14,825 nt of DNA from Aquificota bacterium (GTDB taxonomy: Bacteria > Aquificota > Aquificia > Aquificales > Hydrogenothermaceae), in contig JAADDZ010000017.1 of NCBI GenBank assembly GCA_013153635.1, positions 1 to 14,825 of the forward strand, written 5' to 3'. The first letter of the stretch is position 1. The number at the start of each line of letters is the position of its first letter. Below are positions 74-8,958 of this stretch, one piece after another. The notes under the pieces are model-generated. The model saw only the letters and a program-made list of their open reading frames with translations. It was not told where the DNA came from and did no database searches. Both the position numbers and the translations under genes were made by a program.

Positions 74-92
74 ATCTTCCTCTTAGTATATT

Positions 93-103
93 GTGTTAAA
101 CAC
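93..103. promoter_or_regulatory. 11-bp perfect palindrome upstream of cas1
   Basis: GTGTT-A-AACAC is a perfect dyad in the 44-bp gap between the nucleotidyltransferase stop and the cas1 start. It could be a small operator or the stem of a weak hairpin. It has no uridine tract suited to a terminator, and chance is possible in such AT-rich DNA. Confidence 0.2.
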
Positions 104-117
104 TTTTATTCTTTTTT

Positions 118-447
118 CTAAAGCCATTTTATTCCTTCTTTTTTTATTGTTTCTTTTAGATAAGGAGTTTCTTTGAGGTCTATAACGTCAACTTTATATG
201 GAAGATTACTTTCATCTAACAGCTCTCTTAACAAGGAAAGCTCTTTGGAAATGTTTTTCTGGCTTTCAAAGGCTATATCAATATCTGAACAGTCTGTATG
301 TGTTTTCCTTGCCCTTGAACCAAAAAGAAAAACTTCCACTTTTTCGTTCTTAAAATAGTCTTTTATAAAATCTCTAAGGTCATTGATTGTTTTGACTTTT
401 CTTGACTTCTTTAAAAGCTCTTTATATTCCACTTGCAAAGCTCTCAT
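118..447 (-). CDS. MNT-type minimal nucleotidyltransferase (antitoxin-like)
   Basis: A 109-residue protein of the DNA polymerase beta superfamily, minimal nucleotidyltransferase class. The signature GSRAR (G43, S44) is followed by SDIDI with metal-binding D55 and D57, and a third acidic position in KVDVID (D87 or D90), so the active site looks complete. I chose ATG 445-447; a TTG five codons upstream (460-462) is the alternative, and neither has a clear ribosome site. Family members usually pair with a HEPN toxin, which they silence by AMPylation. No HEPN gene is next to it here. Its neighbours are a Doc toxin 42 bp upstream (counting from the ATG) and cas1 downstream. A role as third member of the toxin-antitoxin module is inference; a stand-alone or orphaned antitoxin is the alternative. 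Confidence 0.8.
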   Translation of the reverse strand: MRALQVEYKELLKKSRKVKTINDLRDFIKDYFKNEKVEVFLFGSRARKTHTDCSDIDIAFESQKNISKELSLLRELLDESNLPYKVDVIDLKETPYLKETIKKEGIKWL

Positions 448-489
448 ACTGAAAATATACAAAAAAATAAAATTATTGAAAAGATGTTG

Positions 490-861
490 TTATTTAACAT
501 GTGTCTTAACCCATTTGATTATTTCACTAAAGTCATACCTTCCAGATGCTATACCCGTAACGAAATTAAATTTTTCATCTTCGTCGGCTATAATTTTTAA
601 CCCGTTTTCTTCTAAAAACAATCTAAATAACACATAAGCTACTCTTTTATTACCATCTATAAAGGGATGATTTTTTATTATAGCTTCTATTAATTTAGCT
701 GCTTTTTCCTCTGCCGATGGGTATAATTCCTTTTCTTCAAAAGTTTGAAATGGTTGTTTTAAAGAACTTTCTAATAGATTTTTGTCTCTAACCCCTAAAG
801 TCCCTCCAGTTTCCATTATTATCTCCTCATGAATCCTTAAAACTAGTTCAGTAGAAAACAA
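490..861 (-). CDS. doc: Doc-family (death-on-curing) toxin
   Basis: A 123-residue Fic-fold protein. The catalytic loop HPFIDGNKR spans residues 65-73 (H65, D69, N71, K72, R73). The NKR ending, where AMPylating Fic enzymes have NGR, is typical of Doc, which phosphorylates and inactivates elongation factor EF-Tu. The GG..GVRDKNLLESSL segment near residues 19-34 also matches the family. The start codon is TTG, directly after the antitoxin stop in the same frame (TAA TTG), with AAAAGG about nine bases upstream as ribosome site. The P1 Doc length (126 residues) agrees. Its partner is the upstream small protein rather than a recognisable Phd. Placement between cas4 and cas1 is unusual. Toxicity and target are inferred from the family. 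Confidence 0.9.
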   Translation of the reverse strand: MFSTELVLRIHEEIIMETGGTLGVRDKNLLESSLKQPFQTFEEKELYPSAEEKAAKLIEAIIKNHPFIDGNKRVAYVLFRLFLEENGLKIIADEDEKFNFVTGIASGRYDFSEIIKWVKTHVK

Positions 862-1044
862 TTATGATAGCCTTTTTAAAAGATTTTTTTCTTCTTTAAT
901 TATTTTCTTTGCTTTTTCCAGTAATTTCTCGTCTAAACTTTTTCTTATGAGTTCCTCAACAACACATTCTTCAGAAACATTTTCCTCTTTGCTTATTTTT
1001 TTGATTAATTCATACAGCTCATCACTGATTTTTATCGCTTTCAT
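862..1044 (-). CDS. Ribbon-helix-helix-like antitoxin partner of Doc
   Basis: Sixty residues starting MKAIKISDELYELI, an N-terminal beta strand followed by two helices, which is the CopG/ribbon-helix-helix pattern, then a charged helical tail (about residues 38-60) suited to binding a toxin. ATG 1042-1044 is preferred over a TTG seven codons upstream because GGTGA sits about seven bases before it. It is immediately followed by the Doc gene with no spacer. Antitoxins of this kind neutralise the toxin and repress their own promoter; a 6-bp dyad overlapping the ribosome site (1047-1065) would suit that. The fold is judged by eye from a short sequence; the antitoxin role rests mainly on position. 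Confidence 0.75.
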   Translation of the reverse strand: MKAIKISDELYELIKKISKEENVSEECVVEELIRKSLDEKLLEKAKKIIKEEKNLLKRLS

Positions 1045-1046
1045 TG

Positions 1047-1065
1047 TTGTATCACCAAAATACAA
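1047..1065. promoter_or_regulatory. Dyad just upstream of the antitoxin start, candidate autoregulatory operator
   Basis: TTGTAT-N7-ATACAA is a perfect 6-bp inverted repeat. On the minus strand it encloses the GGTGA ribosome site of the antitoxin gene and lies downstream of the likely transcription start. Binding by the antitoxin, or a hairpin hiding the ribosome site, would both give autoregulation. Both readings are inference. Confidence 0.4.
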
Positions 1066-1077
1066 ATTTTTAATTAA

Positions 1078-1105
1078 AATATACAGCCTACTTTATACAA
1101 AGCAA
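1078..1105 (-). promoter_or_regulatory. Candidate promoter of the toxin-antitoxin module
   Basis: On the minus strand TTGCTT (1100-1105) and TATATT (1078-1083) are separated by 16 bp, giving a start near 1071. The -35 element lies inside the last codons of cas4, so the module could be transcribed independently of the cas genes. Confidence 0.4.
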
Positions 1106-1782: not shown

Positions 1783-2175
1783 ATGAAAAGGCAAATTAGT
1801 CTATTTATTGCGTTAATATTAACTGTATTCATCACAGCTTGTAATAAAAAAGAAGGATTTAAAAAAGAACTCCAAAATGAAGGATACAAAGCAGTAATAA
1901 CATCTAACAAACCTCTACACATTGGGATAAACATATGGAAAATAAAAATTTATTCTCCAGATGGAAAACCTCTAACAGGGGCTAAAGTGTATATAAATGG
2001 TTATATGCCACCAATGCCCGGCATGCCTGAAATGAGTTTTGACTATCCAGTAGAAGACAAAGGAAATTACTATGAAGCTAAAGTAAATCTGTCTATGGCA
2101 GGAACTTGGCAGATAACAATAAAAGCAGAAAAAAACGGTAAAACAACAACATTTAAGTTTGGATTTAACTTATAA
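1783..2175 (+). CDS. YtkA/FixH-like lipoprotein with methionine ladder, probable periplasmic copper-binding protein
   Basis: A 130-residue secreted protein with a lipoprotein signal: positive start, hydrophobic residues 5-17, and lipobox ITAC with C20 as the lipidated cysteine. The rest is a small beta sandwich resembling the YtkA/FixH-type domain found in many copper pump operons (KIYSPDGKPLTGAKV, then an AGTWQITI strand). Residues 75-84 read MPPMPGMPEM, placing Met at 75, 78, 81 and 84, a pattern suited to soft metals such as Cu(I) or Ag(I). It is the first gene of the operon, 12 bp before the repressor gene. A metallochaperone role delivering copper to the pump, as CusF does, is inference; direct homology to CusF is not evident. 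Confidence 0.75.
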   Translation: MKRQISLFIALILTVFITACNKKEGFKKELQNEGYKAVITSNKPLHIGINIWKIKIYSPDGKPLTGAKVYINGYMPPMPGMPEMSFDYPVEDKGNYYEAKVNLSMAGTWQITIKAEKNGKTTTFKFGFNL

Positions 2176-2187
2176 GGGGGATAACGT

Positions 2188-2613
2188 ATGGAATTTTTCA
2201 AAAAAGCTTTTAAGGCTTTAAGGTTCAATAAGAATAAACCTACTGTCTTTGGAGAACTTGAAGAAAAAGTGATAAATATAATCTGGGAGAAAAAAAGCGG
2301 AACTGTTAGCGAAGTTAGGGAAATCCTTGGAAAAGAAAAATTTGCCCACACAACAATAATGACAATCCTTGATAGGCTTTATAAAAAAGGAATTTTAAAA
2401 AGAGAAAAAGAGGGAAAAGGCTATAGATATTTTCCACTAATCACCAAAGAAGAATTCGAAAGAGAAGTCGCAAAAAAAGTGATAAAAGATATAGTCAAAG
2501 GAAAACCTGACGTTGCAATTGCCGCATTTGAAGGCGTTTTGGAAGAACTTTCTCAAGAAGAGATAAAAAAACTAAAACACCTTATCCAGCAAAAGGTAAA
2601 AGATGAAGAATAA
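2188..2613 (+). CDS. BlaI/MecI/CopY-family transcriptional repressor
   Basis: A 141-residue winged-helix protein. Residues about 20-75 carry the family pattern: LEEKVINIIW, GTVSEVREIL, then the recognition helix TTIMTILDRLYKKGIL and the wing KREKEGKGYRY. The C-terminal helical part is the usual dimer region. A strong ribosome site (AAGGGGG, nine bases before ATG) follows the lipoprotein stop. It overlaps the M56 protease gene by 11 bp, the BlaI-BlaR1 or MecI-MecR1 arrangement. It contains no cysteine, so it lacks the CxCxxxxCxC metal motif of copper-sensing CopY and probably cannot sense metal alone. The first 17 residues are a basic extension not typical of BlaI. The likely target is the two dyads before the operon. 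Confidence 0.9.
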   Translation: MEFFKKAFKALRFNKNKPTVFGELEEKVINIIWEKKSGTVSEVREILGKEKFAHTTIMTILDRLYKKGILKREKEGKGYRYFPLITKEEFEREVAKKVIKDIVKGKPDVAIAAFEGVLEELSQEEIKKLKHLIQQKVKDEE

Positions 2614-3379
2614 ACTTTTTTTCTTAATGGTCTTTTTAATAAGTACTTATGTTTATATCTACTTTTTGCTTATATCTAATCTTGAGAGTTGGATAGTTGA
2701 TATAAAAAGTTGCTTTAAAGTTATGGAAAAAGCGGATTTTTTTATTGAACATACAAATGTATTTTTTTATTTGATATTGTTTGGTTTCATGAGCTTTTCT
2801 GTTTTAAAGGTTTTTATAAAAGCTTTTCTAGAGCTAAAAAAAGCTTTTCTACTAAAGAATAGTATAAATTTACTTAAGATTAAATCTTATAAAAACATAA
2901 TTATTATAAACTTTCCAAAACCTGTGGCATTTAACTTCTTAGATAAGATTGTTTTATCCTCTACTATCCTAAAAGGCTTAAGTAAAAAAGAGAAAAAAGC
3001 TGTCTTTTACCATGAAGTTGGACATTTAAAAAATTTAGATAGTTTTAAATTATTTGTAATTAATATTGCTCTGTCTTTATTTCCAAAACTTGTTAATAAG
3101 AAACTTTTCAGTGGTGTTTTATTAGAAGCAGAACATAATGCAGATACTTTTGCCAGTTTAAAGGTTGGAAAAGAATCTCTTGCGAATGCTCTTATTAATG
3201 TAAAAAGTCTAATTTCAAGTTATCCACTAATGAATAACTTCACCCAAAAAAGAATCGAAATGCTACTCGAAAAGAAAGATTTTAAACTGCCAAAAACTAT
3301 TTGGTTCATATCTTTGTTTTTCTTCACAACACTATTTTTACTACTATGTTACAAAACCTGTTTTTGCGGTACTATGTAG
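2603..3379 (+). CDS. M56-family (BlaR1/MecR1-like) membrane zinc protease, signal transducer
   Basis: A 258-residue membrane protein with the gluzincin zinc site HEVGH (H137, E138, H141) and a downstream EAEHNAD segment (175-181) that supplies the third ligand. Hydrophobic segments lie near residues 5-25, 52-72, 150-162 and 233-249. The stretch PVAFNF before the active site also matches M56 proteins. In BlaR1, a C-terminal penicillin-binding domain senses the drug and activates the protease, which leads to BlaI cleavage. That domain is absent here: the protein ends nine residues after the last helix with C249, C253 and C255. It sits between the repressor gene (11-bp overlap) and cusC (start directly after the stop). 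Metal sensing through the Cys tail is inference. Confidence 0.85.
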   Translation: MKNKLFFLMVFLISTYVYIYFLLISNLESWIVDIKSCFKVMEKADFFIEHTNVFFYLILFGFMSFSVLKVFIKAFLELKKAFLLKNSINLLKIKSYKNIIIINFPKPVAFNFLDKIVLSSTILKGLSKKEKKAVFYHEVGHLKNLDSFKLFVINIALSLFPKLVNKKLFSGVLLEAEHNADTFASLKVGKESLANALINVKSLISSYPLMNNFTQKRIEMLLEKKDFKLPKTIWFISLFFFTTLFLLLCYKTCFCGTM

Positions 3380-4600
3380 ATGTTAAAAGTTTTGGTTTTG
3401 ATTGTAACTTTTTTATCTGAATTTTCGTTTGCAATAACTGTAGAACAACTAGCAGAAAACATAGCAAAAAATCACCCTAAGATAAAATCTATAGAATACA
3501 GATTAAAAGCCCTAAAAGAAAGGCAAACCTTTGAAAATAGTTTACCTGACCCTGTAATTACTTTTTCTATCAATGATATTCAGCTATTTTACAGACCATT
3601 TGCAAGGAACTTAGAGCCGATGCAAACTATAAACTTTGGTTTTTCTCAAAAAATACCTTACCTTCCAAAGCTCAAACAAAAATCCAAAATCATAAAAGTA
3701 AAATACAACAAAACTTACTATAAGCTTTTATTAGAAAAGCTAGAACTAAAATTTGATATATACAAACATGTATACCTTTTTTGGCAGACAAAAGAAAAAC
3801 TAAAAGTACTAGAGGAATTTAAAAACATAGCAAAACATCTAATCGAATTTTCCAACACACTATACAGCATTGGGAAAATATCACAGGCAGAAGTGTTTAA
3901 CACGAATGTATTTTATTCAGAGCTTCTTCAAAGAGAAGTCTTTTTAAAGGGAAGACTAAAGCAGATAGAAAGTAGTTTTGCATACTTTAGTGAAGTTTCT
4001 CTAAAAGAGATAGACATAAAGGTAACCTATCCAAGTGATGTTTTAGAGTTAAATATATTTTTAAAATTTCTAAAAAGAAATAACCCCCAGCTTTTAGTTT
4101 TAAAAGAAGAACTAAAAGAGGCAAAAGAAAAAGTAAAACTTGCAAAACTTGACTATAAACCAGATTTTTCAGTCTTTGCTACATATGCATATAGAAACCC
4201 ATTTAGAGATTATGTATCTTTTGGAGGGAGCTTTAATATACCGCTGTGGGCAAAGAAAAAACAAGAAAAGAAAGTTTTAGAAGAGAGCTTTTATAAACTG
4301 TCAAAAAAGAAAAAACTTTTAGATATAGAAAAAATGCTTATTTCAAAACTTCAAGAAGAGTACTACAAGGCAAAAACTTCATATGAAAGCTTTAAAGTGT
4401 TCCATCAGTATCTAAAGCCACAAACTCAAAAAGTTTATGAAGGTGTACTTTCAGAGTATCAGGTAGGCAAGAAAAATATATTTGATGTACTAAAGGCTTT
4501 AAACCAAATTTTGACTGTACGACAAAAAATAATAGATGAAACTGTAAACTACCACATCGCGTATAAAAACATTCAAAAACTTATGGGGACACTAAAATGA
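3380..4600 (+). CDS. cusC: Outer-membrane efflux protein of the TolC family (CusC-like)
   Basis: A 406-residue protein with a signal peptide (cleavage likely after A18, FSFA-ITVEQ) and two outer-membrane efflux repeats, roughly residues 20-210 and 220-403. Typical marks are AENIAKNHPKIKS near the N-terminus, the QKIPYLPKL strand, and GGSFNIPLW in the second repeat. It forms the trimeric outer-membrane duct of an RND metal pump. No lipobox is seen, unlike E. coli CusC. The ATG follows the M56 stop without a gap and has no ribosome site, so translation is probably coupled; the stop overlaps the cusB start by four bases (ATGA). Membership of the Cu/Ag pump is given by its neighbours. Confidence 0.9.
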   Translation: MLKVLVLIVTFLSEFSFAITVEQLAENIAKNHPKIKSIEYRLKALKERQTFENSLPDPVITFSINDIQLFYRPFARNLEPMQTINFGFSQKIPYLPKLKQKSKIIKVKYNKTYYKLLLEKLELKFDIYKHVYLFWQTKEKLKVLEEFKNIAKHLIEFSNTLYSIGKISQAEVFNTNVFYSELLQREVFLKGRLKQIESSFAYFSEVSLKEIDIKVTYPSDVLELNIFLKFLKRNNPQLLVLKEELKEAKEKVKLAKLDYKPDFSVFATYAYRNPFRDYVSFGGSFNIPLWAKKKQEKKVLEESFYKLSKKKKLLDIEKMLISKLQEEYYKAKTSYESFKVFHQYLKPQTQKVYEGVLSEYQVGKKNIFDVLKALNQILTVRQKIIDETVNYHIAYKNIQKLMGTLK

Positions 4601-5787
4601 AAAACAAAGTTTTAATAGTTATCATTGCTTTAATCTCTGCTTTAGTAGGACTTACTGCTGGTTTTGTTTTTAAAATATATGACAAGGTAGACTTTGAGAG
4701 CTTAATATACAAAGAAGACAAAACTATAAAAAGTGAAAACCTACCAGTTAAAACAACCACCAGACCTGTAGATATATTAACAGTAGAACAGCTTTTTAAC
4801 ATTGACACGACAGTTGTTAGGAAAATGAAACTTGCAAAAACCATAGAAACATATGCAGATGTAGTTCACCCAGAAACAGACCTAAAAGAGATAGTTTTTA
4901 AGATTGACGGCTATGTAGAAGAGATTTACGCAGATTTTACAGGAAAGTATATAAAAAAAGGACAACCTCTTGTGAAGATATACAGTCCGGAGCTTGTTTC
5001 AGCACAGGAAGAGTTCTTAAGAGCTTATGAATATCTAAAAAGCGTTGAGAACTCCAAGGATTATATTATAAAAAACACAGCAAAAAAACTTTATGAAGCA
5101 TCTTACAAAAAGCTCTTATATTGGGACATAACACCAAAACAGATAGAAAATCTAAAAAAAACGAAAAAAGTTATGAAAACTCTCACCCTATACTCCCCTT
5201 ACGATGGCTGGATTATGGAAAAGTATATTTACCTTGGCTCTAAAATTCAGGCAGGTAAACCCTTGTTTAGAATAGCAAACCACGAAAAACTATGGGTTTT
5301 AGCAAAGATTTATGAACCATACCTATCTTTTGTAAAAGAAGGATTAAATGTAGAACTTTACTTTGATAGTTACCCAGATAAAAAAATCATAGGAAAAATA
5401 GATTATATCTATCCAATAATAGACTTTAAAAACAGAACAATAGACGCTCGTATAGTAATAGATAATAAGAACTACAAATACATTCCAAAAATGTATTCAA
5501 AGGTTATAGTAAAAATTTTTCTTGGAGAAAAACTTGTTTTGCCTGATACAGCTGTTATCAACACAGGAAAAAGGCAGATAGTATTTTGGCAAAAGGAAAA
5601 AGGTGTATTTGAGCCAGTATTTGTAAAACTTGGAATGTTTGTAGATGGGTTTTATGAGATAAAGGAGGGACTTCACGAAGGTATGGTCGTTGCAAACTCT
5701 GCACTGTTCTTGCTTGATGCAGATGCCCAGCTAAGAGGTAAGTACTCAAAAGACAAAAAACAAACTAATATGATACATCATCATTAA
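4597..5787 (+). CDS. cusB: RND periplasmic adaptor subunit (CusB-like)
   Basis: A 396-residue membrane fusion protein with an N-terminal membrane anchor (residues 4-26). The barrel-sandwich halves are near 98-132 (FKIDGYVEEIYADFTGKYIK) and 195-228 (LYSPYDGWI...GKPLFRI), with the helical hairpin between them and a beta barrel from about 230. CusB proteins link the inner-membrane pump to the outer duct and hand Cu(I)/Ag(I) to CusA. The protein ends in MIHHH (392-396), a short possible metal-binding tail. No fused CusF domain or heavy-metal-binding N-terminal domain is present. Start ATG overlaps cusC's stop, so the two are translationally coupled; cusA follows after 54 bp with its own ribosome site. 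Confidence 0.9.
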   Translation: MKNKVLIVIIALISALVGLTAGFVFKIYDKVDFESLIYKEDKTIKSENLPVKTTTRPVDILTVEQLFNIDTTVVRKMKLAKTIETYADVVHPETDLKEIVFKIDGYVEEIYADFTGKYIKKGQPLVKIYSPELVSAQEEFLRAYEYLKSVENSKDYIIKNTAKKLYEASYKKLLYWDITPKQIENLKKTKKVMKTLTLYSPYDGWIMEKYIYLGSKIQAGKPLFRIANHEKLWVLAKIYEPYLSFVKEGLNVELYFDSYPDKKIIGKIDYIYPIIDFKNRTIDARIVIDNKNYKYIPKMYSKVIVKIFLGEKLVLPDTAVINTGKRQIVFWQKEKGVFEPVFVKLGMFVDGFYEIKEGLHEGMVVANSALFLLDADAQLRGKYSKDKKQTNMIHHH

Positions 5788-5841
5788 AGAGATTAAAGAC
5801 CACGCATAAAGAGAGGAAAATATTATCCCAAGGGATTAGAT

Positions 5842-8800
5842 ATGATAGAGAAGATAATAGACTGGTCAGTCAGGAATAAGATAATAGTTCTATCTTTAAT
5901 AGCCTTAGTGCTTGGAGCTTCCCTATGGGCTTTAAAGGAAACACCCCTTGATGCAATACCAGACCTATCACCTCCACAGGTTATAGTATGGACGAAGTGG
6001 TCTGGTCAATCACCACAGATTATAGAAGACCAGATAACATACCCTCTAGTCAGCACACTTTTATCAGTTCCAAATATAGAAACTGTTAGAGGAATATCTT
6101 CATTTGAGACCTCCGCCGTTTATGTGATTTTCAAAGAAGGAACTAATATTTACTGGGCAAGAAGCAGAGTTTTAGAATACTTGACCCAAATTAAAGACAA
6201 ACTACCAAAGTCTGCCGAAATCACTCTAGGAGCTGACGCCACAGGAGTGGGCTGGATATTTGAGTATGCTATCTTTTCAGAAAAGAGAAATCTATGGCAA
6301 CTTAGAACCCTTCAGGACTGGTATTTGAGATACCATCTTTTGTCTGTTGATGGGGTTGCTGAAGTAGCATCAGTTGGAGGTTTTGTAAAAGGTTATCAAA
6401 TCACGATAGACCCCCAAAAACTTAGAATCTATAACCTGTCTCTAAAACAAGTCCTAAAAGCCCTAAGAGAAAACAACAACGACACAGGCGGAAGAATTAT
6501 AGAGCATAACGGTTTTGAATACATAATTCAAGGTAAAGGTTATATCCAAAATTTAGAAGAAATAATGAACCTAACTATAAAAACAGATGAAAACGGAATA
6601 CCAATAAGGATAAAAGAGATAGGAAAAACAGAGCTTGTTCCAATGCCAAGAAGAGGAATAGCAGAGCTTAACGGTATCGGGGAAGTTGTAGGCGGGATTA
6701 TAGTAATGAGATTTGGAGAAAATGCCTACAGAGTTATCCAGAGTGTAAAACAAAAATTAAAAGAGATAAAACAGTCCCTACCAGAAGACATCAAAATAGT
6801 TACAACCTATGACCGCTTTGAGCTTATAGAAAAAGCGATAGCAACCTTAAAAAGAGCATTACTTGAAGAGATGTTAATAGTAACAGCAGTAATAGGACTG
6901 TTTTTGTTACATTTTAGAAGCTCGCTTGTAATAATACTAACCCTTCCACTAGCAGTTTTAATCGGATTTTTATTTATGAAAATGTTTGGAATTACATCAA
7001 ACATTATGTCCCTTGGAGGAATAGCTATAGCTATTGGAGCTATGGTAGATGGTGCTATCGTTATGGTAGAAAATGCCCACAAAAACCTTGAAAAATTAAA
7101 AAAAGAAAAAGGACATATCACAAACGAAAACAGAATAAAAGCAGTAATAAACGCATCTAAACAGGTAGGAAAACCTATATTTTTTGCACTACTTATTATA
7201 GTTGTTTCATTTTTACCTATTTTTGCTCTTTCAGGACAGGAAGGACTACTGTTTAAACCCCTTGCATACACAAAGACATTTACAATGCTAGCATCATCAG
7301 TTTTAACAATAACTCTTGTTCCAATCCTTATGCTATGGTTTATAAAAGGAAATATTATTCCAGAGCATAAAAACCCTATAAACTGGTTACTTATAAAACT
7401 TTACTCACCAATAATCAAACTTACATTAAAGGCAAGATATATAGTTTTAATACTTACTATCCTTGCAATATACGCAGTTTACCCACTTTATAAAAAACTA
7501 TCATGGGAATTTATGCCAATGTTTAATGAAGAAACCTTTATGTATATGCCTGTTACCCCTTTTGGAATATCAGCAGACGAAGCAAAAAGAATAACCCAGC
7601 TGACAGACAAAATACTTGCATCATTTCCAGAGGTAGACACTGTATTTGGAAAAGCAGGAAGAGCAGAAACAGCAACAGACCCAGCACCCCTTTCAATGAT
7701 AGAAACCATTATCACATTTAAGCCTAAAGAGTACTGGCGAGAAGGAATGACCTATGAAACTCTTATGCAAGAAATGGAAGATAAACTAAAAGTTCCGGGA
7801 CTCACAAACAGTTGGACTTACCCAATAAGAGGTAGAATTGATATGCTACTAACAGGCATAAAAACCCCTCTTGGGATAAAACTCTACGGAGATGATTTAG
7901 ATAAACTTCAAAAAGTTGCAACCCAAATAGAACAATCTCTATCAAAATTACCGCAAACCTTATCAGTTTTTGCAGATAGGATAGCCCAAGGGTATTACAT
8001 TAACATAGAGATAAACAAACAAAAACTTGCCAGATACTCCCTTACAACAGATGATATTTTAACAGTTATCCAAACAGCTATAGGAGGAATTCCTATTTCT
8101 ACAATCTACAAAGGACTTGAAAGATACCCACTACTTGTAAGATTTCCGTATGATTATAGAAATAATATACAAGCACTTAAAAATCTTATAATTCCAACCC
8201 CTTTAAACAGAGGAATACCCTTAAAAGAAGTAGCCAAAATATACTATAAAGAAGCCCCAATAGTGATAAAATCAGAAAAAGGAATGAAAGTAGTATTTAT
8301 CTATATAACGCCACAACCAGATGTACCTCTAAAAGAGTATATATCAAAAGCAAAAAAAGTCATTGCAAATATAAGCATACCTTCAGGATTTTTTATAGAA
8401 TGGGCTGGACAAAGTCAATATCTAAAGCACGCACAAGAAAAACTAAAGCTAATAATTCCTCTAACAATACTGATTATATTTTTACTTGTTTACATAATCT
8501 TTAAAGATATAACCAATACACTCATAGTAATGCTTTCGTTACCATTTGCATCTATTGGGGGGCTGTGGTACTTAGATTATCTAAATTTTAATATGAGTGT
8601 AGCAGTTGTAGTTGGATTTTTGGCACTTTTCGGAGTAGCAGTAGAAACAGCAATAATCATGATTCTGTACATAGAAAAGAGTATAGAAAAATATAAAAAA
8701 GAACACAAAGAGCTAACAAAAGAGTTGTTTTTCAAAGCAATTTACGAAGGAACAGTTTTAAGAGTTCGCCCAAAAATGATGACAGTTTTGACAATACTAG

Positions 8801-8958
8801 CAGGACTAATCCCACTTATGTACATAACAGGAGTAGGAAGTGAAGTTATGCAAAGGATAGCCGCACCAATGATAGGAGGAATAGTATCTTCAGCAATTTT
8901 AACCTTAGTAATTATACCTGCTCTTTATGCAACTTTTAAAAGTAGACTAAGAGAATGA
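5842..8958 (+). CDS. cusA: Heavy-metal RND efflux pump, Cu(I)/Ag(I) type (CusA-like)
   Basis: A full-length 1038-residue proton-driven inner-membrane pump. The TM4 motif GGIAIAIGAMVDGAIVMVEN (D403) has the form found in copper/silver exporters rather than the DFG form of Co/Zn/Cd pumps. Three methionines that bind Cu(I) in E. coli CusA (M573, M623, M672) have exact counterparts at M569 (YMP), M619 (PLSMIET) and M668 (RIDML), each shifted by four. The proton-relay residues are present as D403, E935 (AVETA) and K978 (RPKMM). AAGGG seven bases upstream of ATG is the ribosome site. It is the last gene of the operon and ends nine bases from a convergent gene with no evident terminator hairpin. Copper/silver specificity is inferred from these residues. 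Confidence 0.95.
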   Translation: MIEKIIDWSVRNKIIVLSLIALVLGASLWALKETPLDAIPDLSPPQVIVWTKWSGQSPQIIEDQITYPLVSTLLSVPNIETVRGISSFETSAVYVIFKEGTNIYWARSRVLEYLTQIKDKLPKSAEITLGADATGVGWIFEYAIFSEKRNLWQLRTLQDWYLRYHLLSVDGVAEVASVGGFVKGYQITIDPQKLRIYNLSLKQVLKALRENNNDTGGRIIEHNGFEYIIQGKGYIQNLEEIMNLTIKTDENGIPIRIKEIGKTELVPMPRRGIAELNGIGEVVGGIIVMRFGENAYRVIQSVKQKLKEIKQSLPEDIKIVTTYDRFELIEKAIATLKRALLEEMLIVTAVIGLFLLHFRSSLVIILTLPLAVLIGFLFMKMFGITSNIMSLGGIAIAIGAMVDGAIVMVENAHKNLEKLKKEKGHITNENRIKAVINASKQVGKPIFFALLIIVVSFLPIFALSGQEGLLFKPLAYTKTFTMLASSVLTITLVPILMLWFIKGNIIPEHKNPINWLLIKLYSPIIKLTLKARYIVLILTILAIYAVYPLYKKLSWEFMPMFNEETFMYMPVTPFGISADEAKRITQLTDKILASFPEVDTVFGKAGRAETATDPAPLSMIETIITFKPKEYWREGMTYETLMQEMEDKLKVPGLTNSWTYPIRGRIDMLLTGIKTPLGIKLYGDDLDKLQKVATQIEQSLSKLPQTLSVFADRIAQGYYINIEINKQKLARYSLTTDDILTVIQTAIGGIPISTIYKGLERYPLLVRFPYDYRNNIQALKNLIIPTPLNRGIPLKEVAKIYYKEAPIVIKSEKGMKVVFIYITPQPDVPLKEYISKAKKVIANISIPSGFFIEWAGQSQYLKHAQEKLKLIIPLTILIIFLLVYIIFKDITNTLIVMLSLPFASIGGLWYLDYLNFNMSVAVVVGFLALFGVAVETAIIMILYIEKSIEKYKKEHKELTKELFFKAIYEGTVLRVRPKMMTVLTILAGLIPLMYITGVGSEVMQRIAAPMIGGIVSSAILTLVIIPALYATFKSRLRE

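Follow-up and report, generated by a model that had tools for sequence, protein, structure and literature searches.

In the window, the whole stretch of 14,825 nucleotides analysed here, which is contig C14 in its entirety, from a draft genome of 1.69 Mb (G000, 96% complete), a type II toxin-antitoxin (TA) cassette consisting of a ribbon-helix-helix (RHH) type antitoxin and the toxin Doc appears to have settled seamlessly between the stop codon of cas4 and the start codon of cas1. This cassette is intact and probably occupies an exchangeable accessory slot, which the Hydrogenothermaceae would repeatedly have filled with exchangeable TA or defence genes, and from which it would stabilise the cas genes by virtue of its location, with no link dedicated to CRISPR function. 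An accessory slot with ordinary TA cassettes is favoured because the cargo of the junction is interchangeable and because the Doc cassette is also found at unrelated loci.

On the minus strand, cas4 is followed by the genes for the antitoxin, Doc and an MNT nucleotidyltransferase and by the start of cas1, all co-oriented (Table 1). An earlier note on this DNA had placed these three genes between cas4 and cas1, which is borne out by profile matches and by the cas1 N-terminus of 24 codons, 96% identical (E 5.6e-9) to Cas1 of G012, a genome of another genus, with which the window equally shares 84% identity in Cas4. The contig holds just 73 bases of cas1 and an N-terminal query gave no match to the remainder in the assembly of G000. 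Between cas3 and cas4, a membrane protein, an AAA_14/DUF4143 ATPase and the RlaP gene are encoded besides a plus-strand efflux cluster with BlaI/BlaR-like regulators (1783-8958), which separates cas3 and RlaP from cas4. Elsewhere in G000, two CRISPR arrays with one repeat type are located, L221 (C1:70182-70994), the leader of which reaches the contig end where the missing cas1-cas2 may lie, and L222 (C12:191859-192341), close to type III-B-like genes.

Table 1. Features of the window, with coordinates counted from its first nucleotide.
Feature	Start	End	Strand	Basis
cas4, type I-B-like, 170 aa	1093	1605	-	PF01930 E 8e-57; Cas4b profile 8e-64
Antitoxin, ribbon-helix-helix type, 60 aa, C-terminal tail EEKNLLKRLS	862	1044	-	Conserved tail, AF2 fold
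Doc toxin, Fic fold, TTG start, 123 aa	490	861	-	PF02661 5e-18; TIGR01550 2.3e-18
MNT nucleotidyltransferase, MntA-like antitoxin, orphan	118	447	-	PF18765 1.9e-14
Probable HEPN toxin gene remnant, MALEKRIKVFNTIY and stop	83	127	-	10-nt overlap with MNT stop
cas1 5' end, 24 codons, contig ends at 1	1	73	-	Similarity to G012 Cas1
12-bp palindrome TTTTAATTAAAA in the cas4-antitoxin gap, probably the dyad of the earlier note	1068	1079	.	Chance level
cas3, same contig	12445	14733	-	Cas3b profile 7e-173
RlaP nucleotidyltransferase	8968	9777	-	PF10127 3.4e-88

By all available tests of sequence and predicted fold, the antitoxin-Doc pair qualifies well as a type II module. The matches of Doc to Fic and TIGR01550 exceed the curated cut-offs, the motif HPFIDGNKR is intact including the catalytic histidine, and the AF2 model (pLDDT 97) has the Phd-Doc complex 3dd7 as best match with a TM score of 0.82. 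Translation is assigned to the TTG directly after the antitoxin stop, a start position common to the relatives. The antitoxin, modelled as beta-alpha-alpha with a pLDDT of 86, finds RHH antitoxins and CopG/Arc as best matches in the PDB with weak E-values, and a match to Pfam RHH_1 that is equally weak (E 0.028); the Phd/YefM DNA-binding domain which strict membership in Phd-Doc entails was not found in this RHH-like protein. The strongest argument for its predicted identity is the conserved tail. While the antitoxin shares 50% identity with its counterpart in G012, the tail is invariant, and the same kind of tail ends the upstream gene in 75 of 78 Doc relatives from other phyla versus 61 of 1016 background genes (6%), being kept across many phyla whatever the DNA-binding part of the upstream gene. 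Thus a Fic/Doc fold, an intact motif and a tailed antitoxin gene directly upstream, as in Doc-type type II modules, are found together, and a chance reading is dismissed because the relatives have kept the reading frames, the catalytic motif and the antitoxin tail. Where the window has HPFIDGNKR, Doc of phage P1 has HIFNDANKR, so that Doc here may act on its target either by phosphorylation, as P1 Doc does, or by AMP transfer.

The third gene of the insert can best be read as an antitoxin left over from an MNT-HEPN pair with a deleted toxin; the gene would be what remains here of a second TA pair, now decayed. With a start at ATG 447, the MNT gene product matches Polbeta/NTP_transf_2 and possesses the motif GSRAR...SDIDIAF, its match to the NCBIfam model of MntA being below the family cut-off; of the features of type VII HepT-MntA systems it thus has the GS...DxD motif, but no HEPN toxin gene lies beside it in the window. 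A gene with the HEPN motif is located directly downstream of MNT in 9 of the 12 nearest relatives within the family (the other three are without a HEPN gene), is PF08780/HepT-like, and in clean cases its start overlaps the MNT stop by 10 nt. The same overlap of 10 nt is found in the window for a 14-codon open reading frame (127-83), which begins like the intact HEPN genes of the relatives (MAL.KR) and stops just upstream of the ribosome-binding site of cas1. This frame is probably the stub of the deleted HEPN toxin gene; probable and not proven, because it shares its first 10 bases with MNT, whose reading frame constrains them as well.

The earlier note had proposed a promoter candidate inside the cas4 tail, a dyad of the module's own and transcription into cas1 that would couple spacer acquisition to the antitoxin. 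The cas4 tail has no promoter match at a threshold of 9/12, with 4 matches in 1-1900 versus 7.3 in shuffles, and the palindrome in the cas4-antitoxin gap, made of A+T, is one of 10 such elements in the window versus 8.75 in shuffles, without a counterpart in the G012 interval. In G012, the gap between cas4 and antitoxin is just 29 nt including a ribosome-binding site, so that a promoter outside cas4 would hardly fit. Equally, no minus-strand terminator is recognisable between module and cas1. Of its observations, gene order and module thus stand and promoter and dyad fall to chance level; of its interpretation, a TA module within the adaptation operon, recurrent and not isolated from cas1 by a terminator, is retained without the separate promoter and operator. 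As judged from spacing only, co-transcription of cas4, module and cas1 is the simplest reading. That the antitoxin, through an operator before the module, autoregulates and thereby tunes cas1 transcription and hence spacer acquisition would be in line with the RHH-like fold and the missing terminator, but with a promoter not above chance, a chance-level dyad and the short gap in G012 such tuning is very unlikely.

Next to no probability can be assigned to a CRISPR-regulated module of the CreTA or CrePA kind, in which a crRNA-like RNA together with the effector represses the toxin. The type I cas context and the two arrays of G000, which share one repeat type, would agree with it, but no repeat-like element and no CRISPR-repeat-flanked ectopic CreA gene was found in 1-1800 (best similarity 17/30, equal to the shuffle mode), spacer matches to the window are, among the matches listed, short and chance-like, a protein antitoxin is present, and two queries gave no I-B Cas7 in the assembly, though the contig ends at cas3. 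Without a CreA-like ectopic CRISPR repeat, the parallel to CreTA is one of outcome at most.

The use of the junction across the order was surveyed by measuring the gap wherever cas4 and cas1 lay on one stretch, the G033b junction with a decayed cas4 being excluded. Filled junctions were found in 14 of 31 cases in the Hydrogenothermaceae, one of them with a remnant, versus none of 28 for the remaining families of the order (Fisher p 2e-5; about 0.01 when close relatives were roughly collapsed by hand), and cas4 stop and cas1 start are undamaged by insertion. Ten genomes from the cas lineage of the window have cas4 and cas1 with an empty junction. As inserts, antitoxin-Doc (two), MNT, RlaP alone or with a helicase, HNH or GP88 gene, McrBC-like/DUF2357 genes and an AAA_14 ATPase on the opposite strand occur, and in a second cas lineage either an 82-aa gene with TumE or a DUF6036 nucleotidyltransferase with a 72-aa partner. 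Besides Doc and MNT, the cargo families at this junction thus include RlaP, SF1 helicase, HNH, GP88, DUF2357, AAA_14, DUF6036 and TumE, with RlaP found also at cas4-cas1 or cas3-cas4 in G051, G023, G073, G041 and G029.

RlaP is a recurrent cas neighbour in the family (besides the window, L160:8090-9241 and L162:6348-7136), once as a MazG-like fusion and once overlapping the cas4 start. TumE (PF20126, 3.5e-21) with the 82-aa gene (L225:864-1440 and L224:874-1464 in G015 and G047) represents an independent TA toxin at cas4-cas1. The DUF6036 nucleotidyltransferase and its partner of 72-73 aa, which belongs to no known family (L223:982-1750 in G023; L231:1389-2151 in G057), possibly form an undescribed two-gene module, of which the G043 junction retains a remnant only (L226:981-1136). 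TA genes are also located between cas7 and cas5, namely Phd/YefM with a YafQ-like toxin in G029 (L162:2685-3212) and RelB in G015 (L163:15318-15602); an apparent loss of cas7 beside these genes is a gene-calling artefact, as cas7 is intact in both genomes. Upstream of cas4, a four-gene cluster (DUF6884, 548 aa, HerA/DUF87, 432 aa; L160:2338-7642 in G023, L161:13976-19292 in G041) looks like an unnamed defence cluster, and C-terminally shortened cas1 copies lie beside phage tail genes together with HNH and helicase genes (L161:5725-6639, L167:7888-8640).

The Doc cassette itself was searched for in 41 Hydrogenothermaceae genomes and is present in seven, one copy being decayed. The earlier note had proposed a survey of cas4-cas1 intervals in relatives, and at the same junction the module recurs in G012; there the order is cas4, antitoxin, Doc, cas1 with no other gene between, and the Doc stop shares bases with the cas1 start (TAATG). 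At unrelated loci, the cassette occupies one site common to G003 and G023 and decayed in G085, a place beside a transporter-like gene in G051 and, in G073, the position immediately after an sfsA-like gene; in the G003 copy the catalytic histidine is replaced (H to Y). In other phyla, none of 80 loci of Doc relatives has cas genes in flanks of up to 6 kb, as queried with Aquificales Cas proteins, which could miss distant cas genes. One shared insertion in G000 and G012 was considered and rejected: the Cas4 trees reject the two as sisters (p-AU 0.029 for DNA, 0.012 for protein), G012 grouping with genomes that carry RlaP cargo, and Doc trees, in which the two cas-borne copies group weakly (80/69), cannot decide. 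These trees are compatible with two separate arrivals as well as with a single old one followed by replacement, and under either history the exchange of cargo at the cas4-cas1 junction is clear.

In the accessory slot, the module would most likely share with cas4 a transcript that runs on into cas1, and the C-terminal helix of the antitoxin would cap Doc as Phd does. Loss or silencing of the segment would deplete the labile antitoxin ahead of the toxin and leave Doc unopposed to modify its target and arrest growth, so that a stabilising effect on the adjacent cas genes would follow from position without a dedicated CRISPR link. Two points stand against this account: the weak grouping in the Doc tree would fit one old insertion with subsequent co-inheritance, and the enrichment of inserts compared with other families could reflect selection for coupling instead of a permissive slot.

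Evolved guarding of the cas genes is possible. In its strict form, a TA cassette selected at cas4-cas1 would release Doc when the adaptation operon is lost or shut down, as a protein counterpart of CreTA, to which the sharing of the junction by unrelated TA types within the family (Doc in two genera, TumE, the MNT-HEPN remnant) and the tight overlap of Doc and cas1 in G012 lend weight. Such a dedicated guard is nevertheless unlikely, because the junction is empty in close relatives, non-TA cargo is as frequent as TA cargo, Doc cassettes stand alone at non-cas sites and the HEPN toxin has apparently been lost from the window junction; a crRNA-like control element is equally missing. The wider version, in which the junction is a selected socket whose interchangeable co-transcribed TA cassettes impose a cost on losing or silencing the adaptation operon, as a protein analogue of CreTA acting via operon position and not crRNA-like control, is improbable as well. 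A more doubtful role is that of a backup by abortive infection, Doc acting when a phage degrades the antitoxin or shuts off the operon and thereby complementing CRISPR: the slot otherwise carries defence-type genes (McrBC-like, RlaP-helicase-HNH, ATPases), and Doc and MNT match candidate defence profiles (PDC), but these matches are partial.

The positional reading of an ordinary cassette in an accessory slot can be set against systems already described. With Phd-Doc of phage P1 (3dd7, 3kh2) the window shares the Doc fold, an antitoxin gene directly upstream and a tail as the likely neutralising part, at 21-25% identity, with a different motif, and with an RHH-like instead of a Phd/YefM DNA-binding part. 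HepT-MntA resembles the MNT gene in its motif and in the relatives with HEPN directly downstream, whereas the window has only the probable 14-codon remnant of the toxin. As in CreTA and CrePA, TA genes are linked to a type I cas locus and addiction to the cas genes might result, but a crRNA-like antitoxin and the effector complex act there, and a protein antitoxin without a repeat-like element is encoded here. CRISPR loci are frequently lost and RNA guards such as CreTA are one known counter-measure; filled junctions and closely related empty ones provide natural plus/minus pairs for distinguishing a stabilising effect of protein TA modules on cas genes from mere hitch-hiking. TA pairs in type I cas loci, Fic/DOC toxins included, mostly on the same strand and with the antitoxin first, have been reported (Zhang, Doak and Ye 2013, PMC3936711), and the window has equally a same-strand pair, antitoxin first, between cas genes in a locus with cas3. 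While the examples reported there are scattered, one junction is refilled across a family here, with an RHH-type partner to Doc, and this repeated use of a single junction by unrelated toxins merits further attention.
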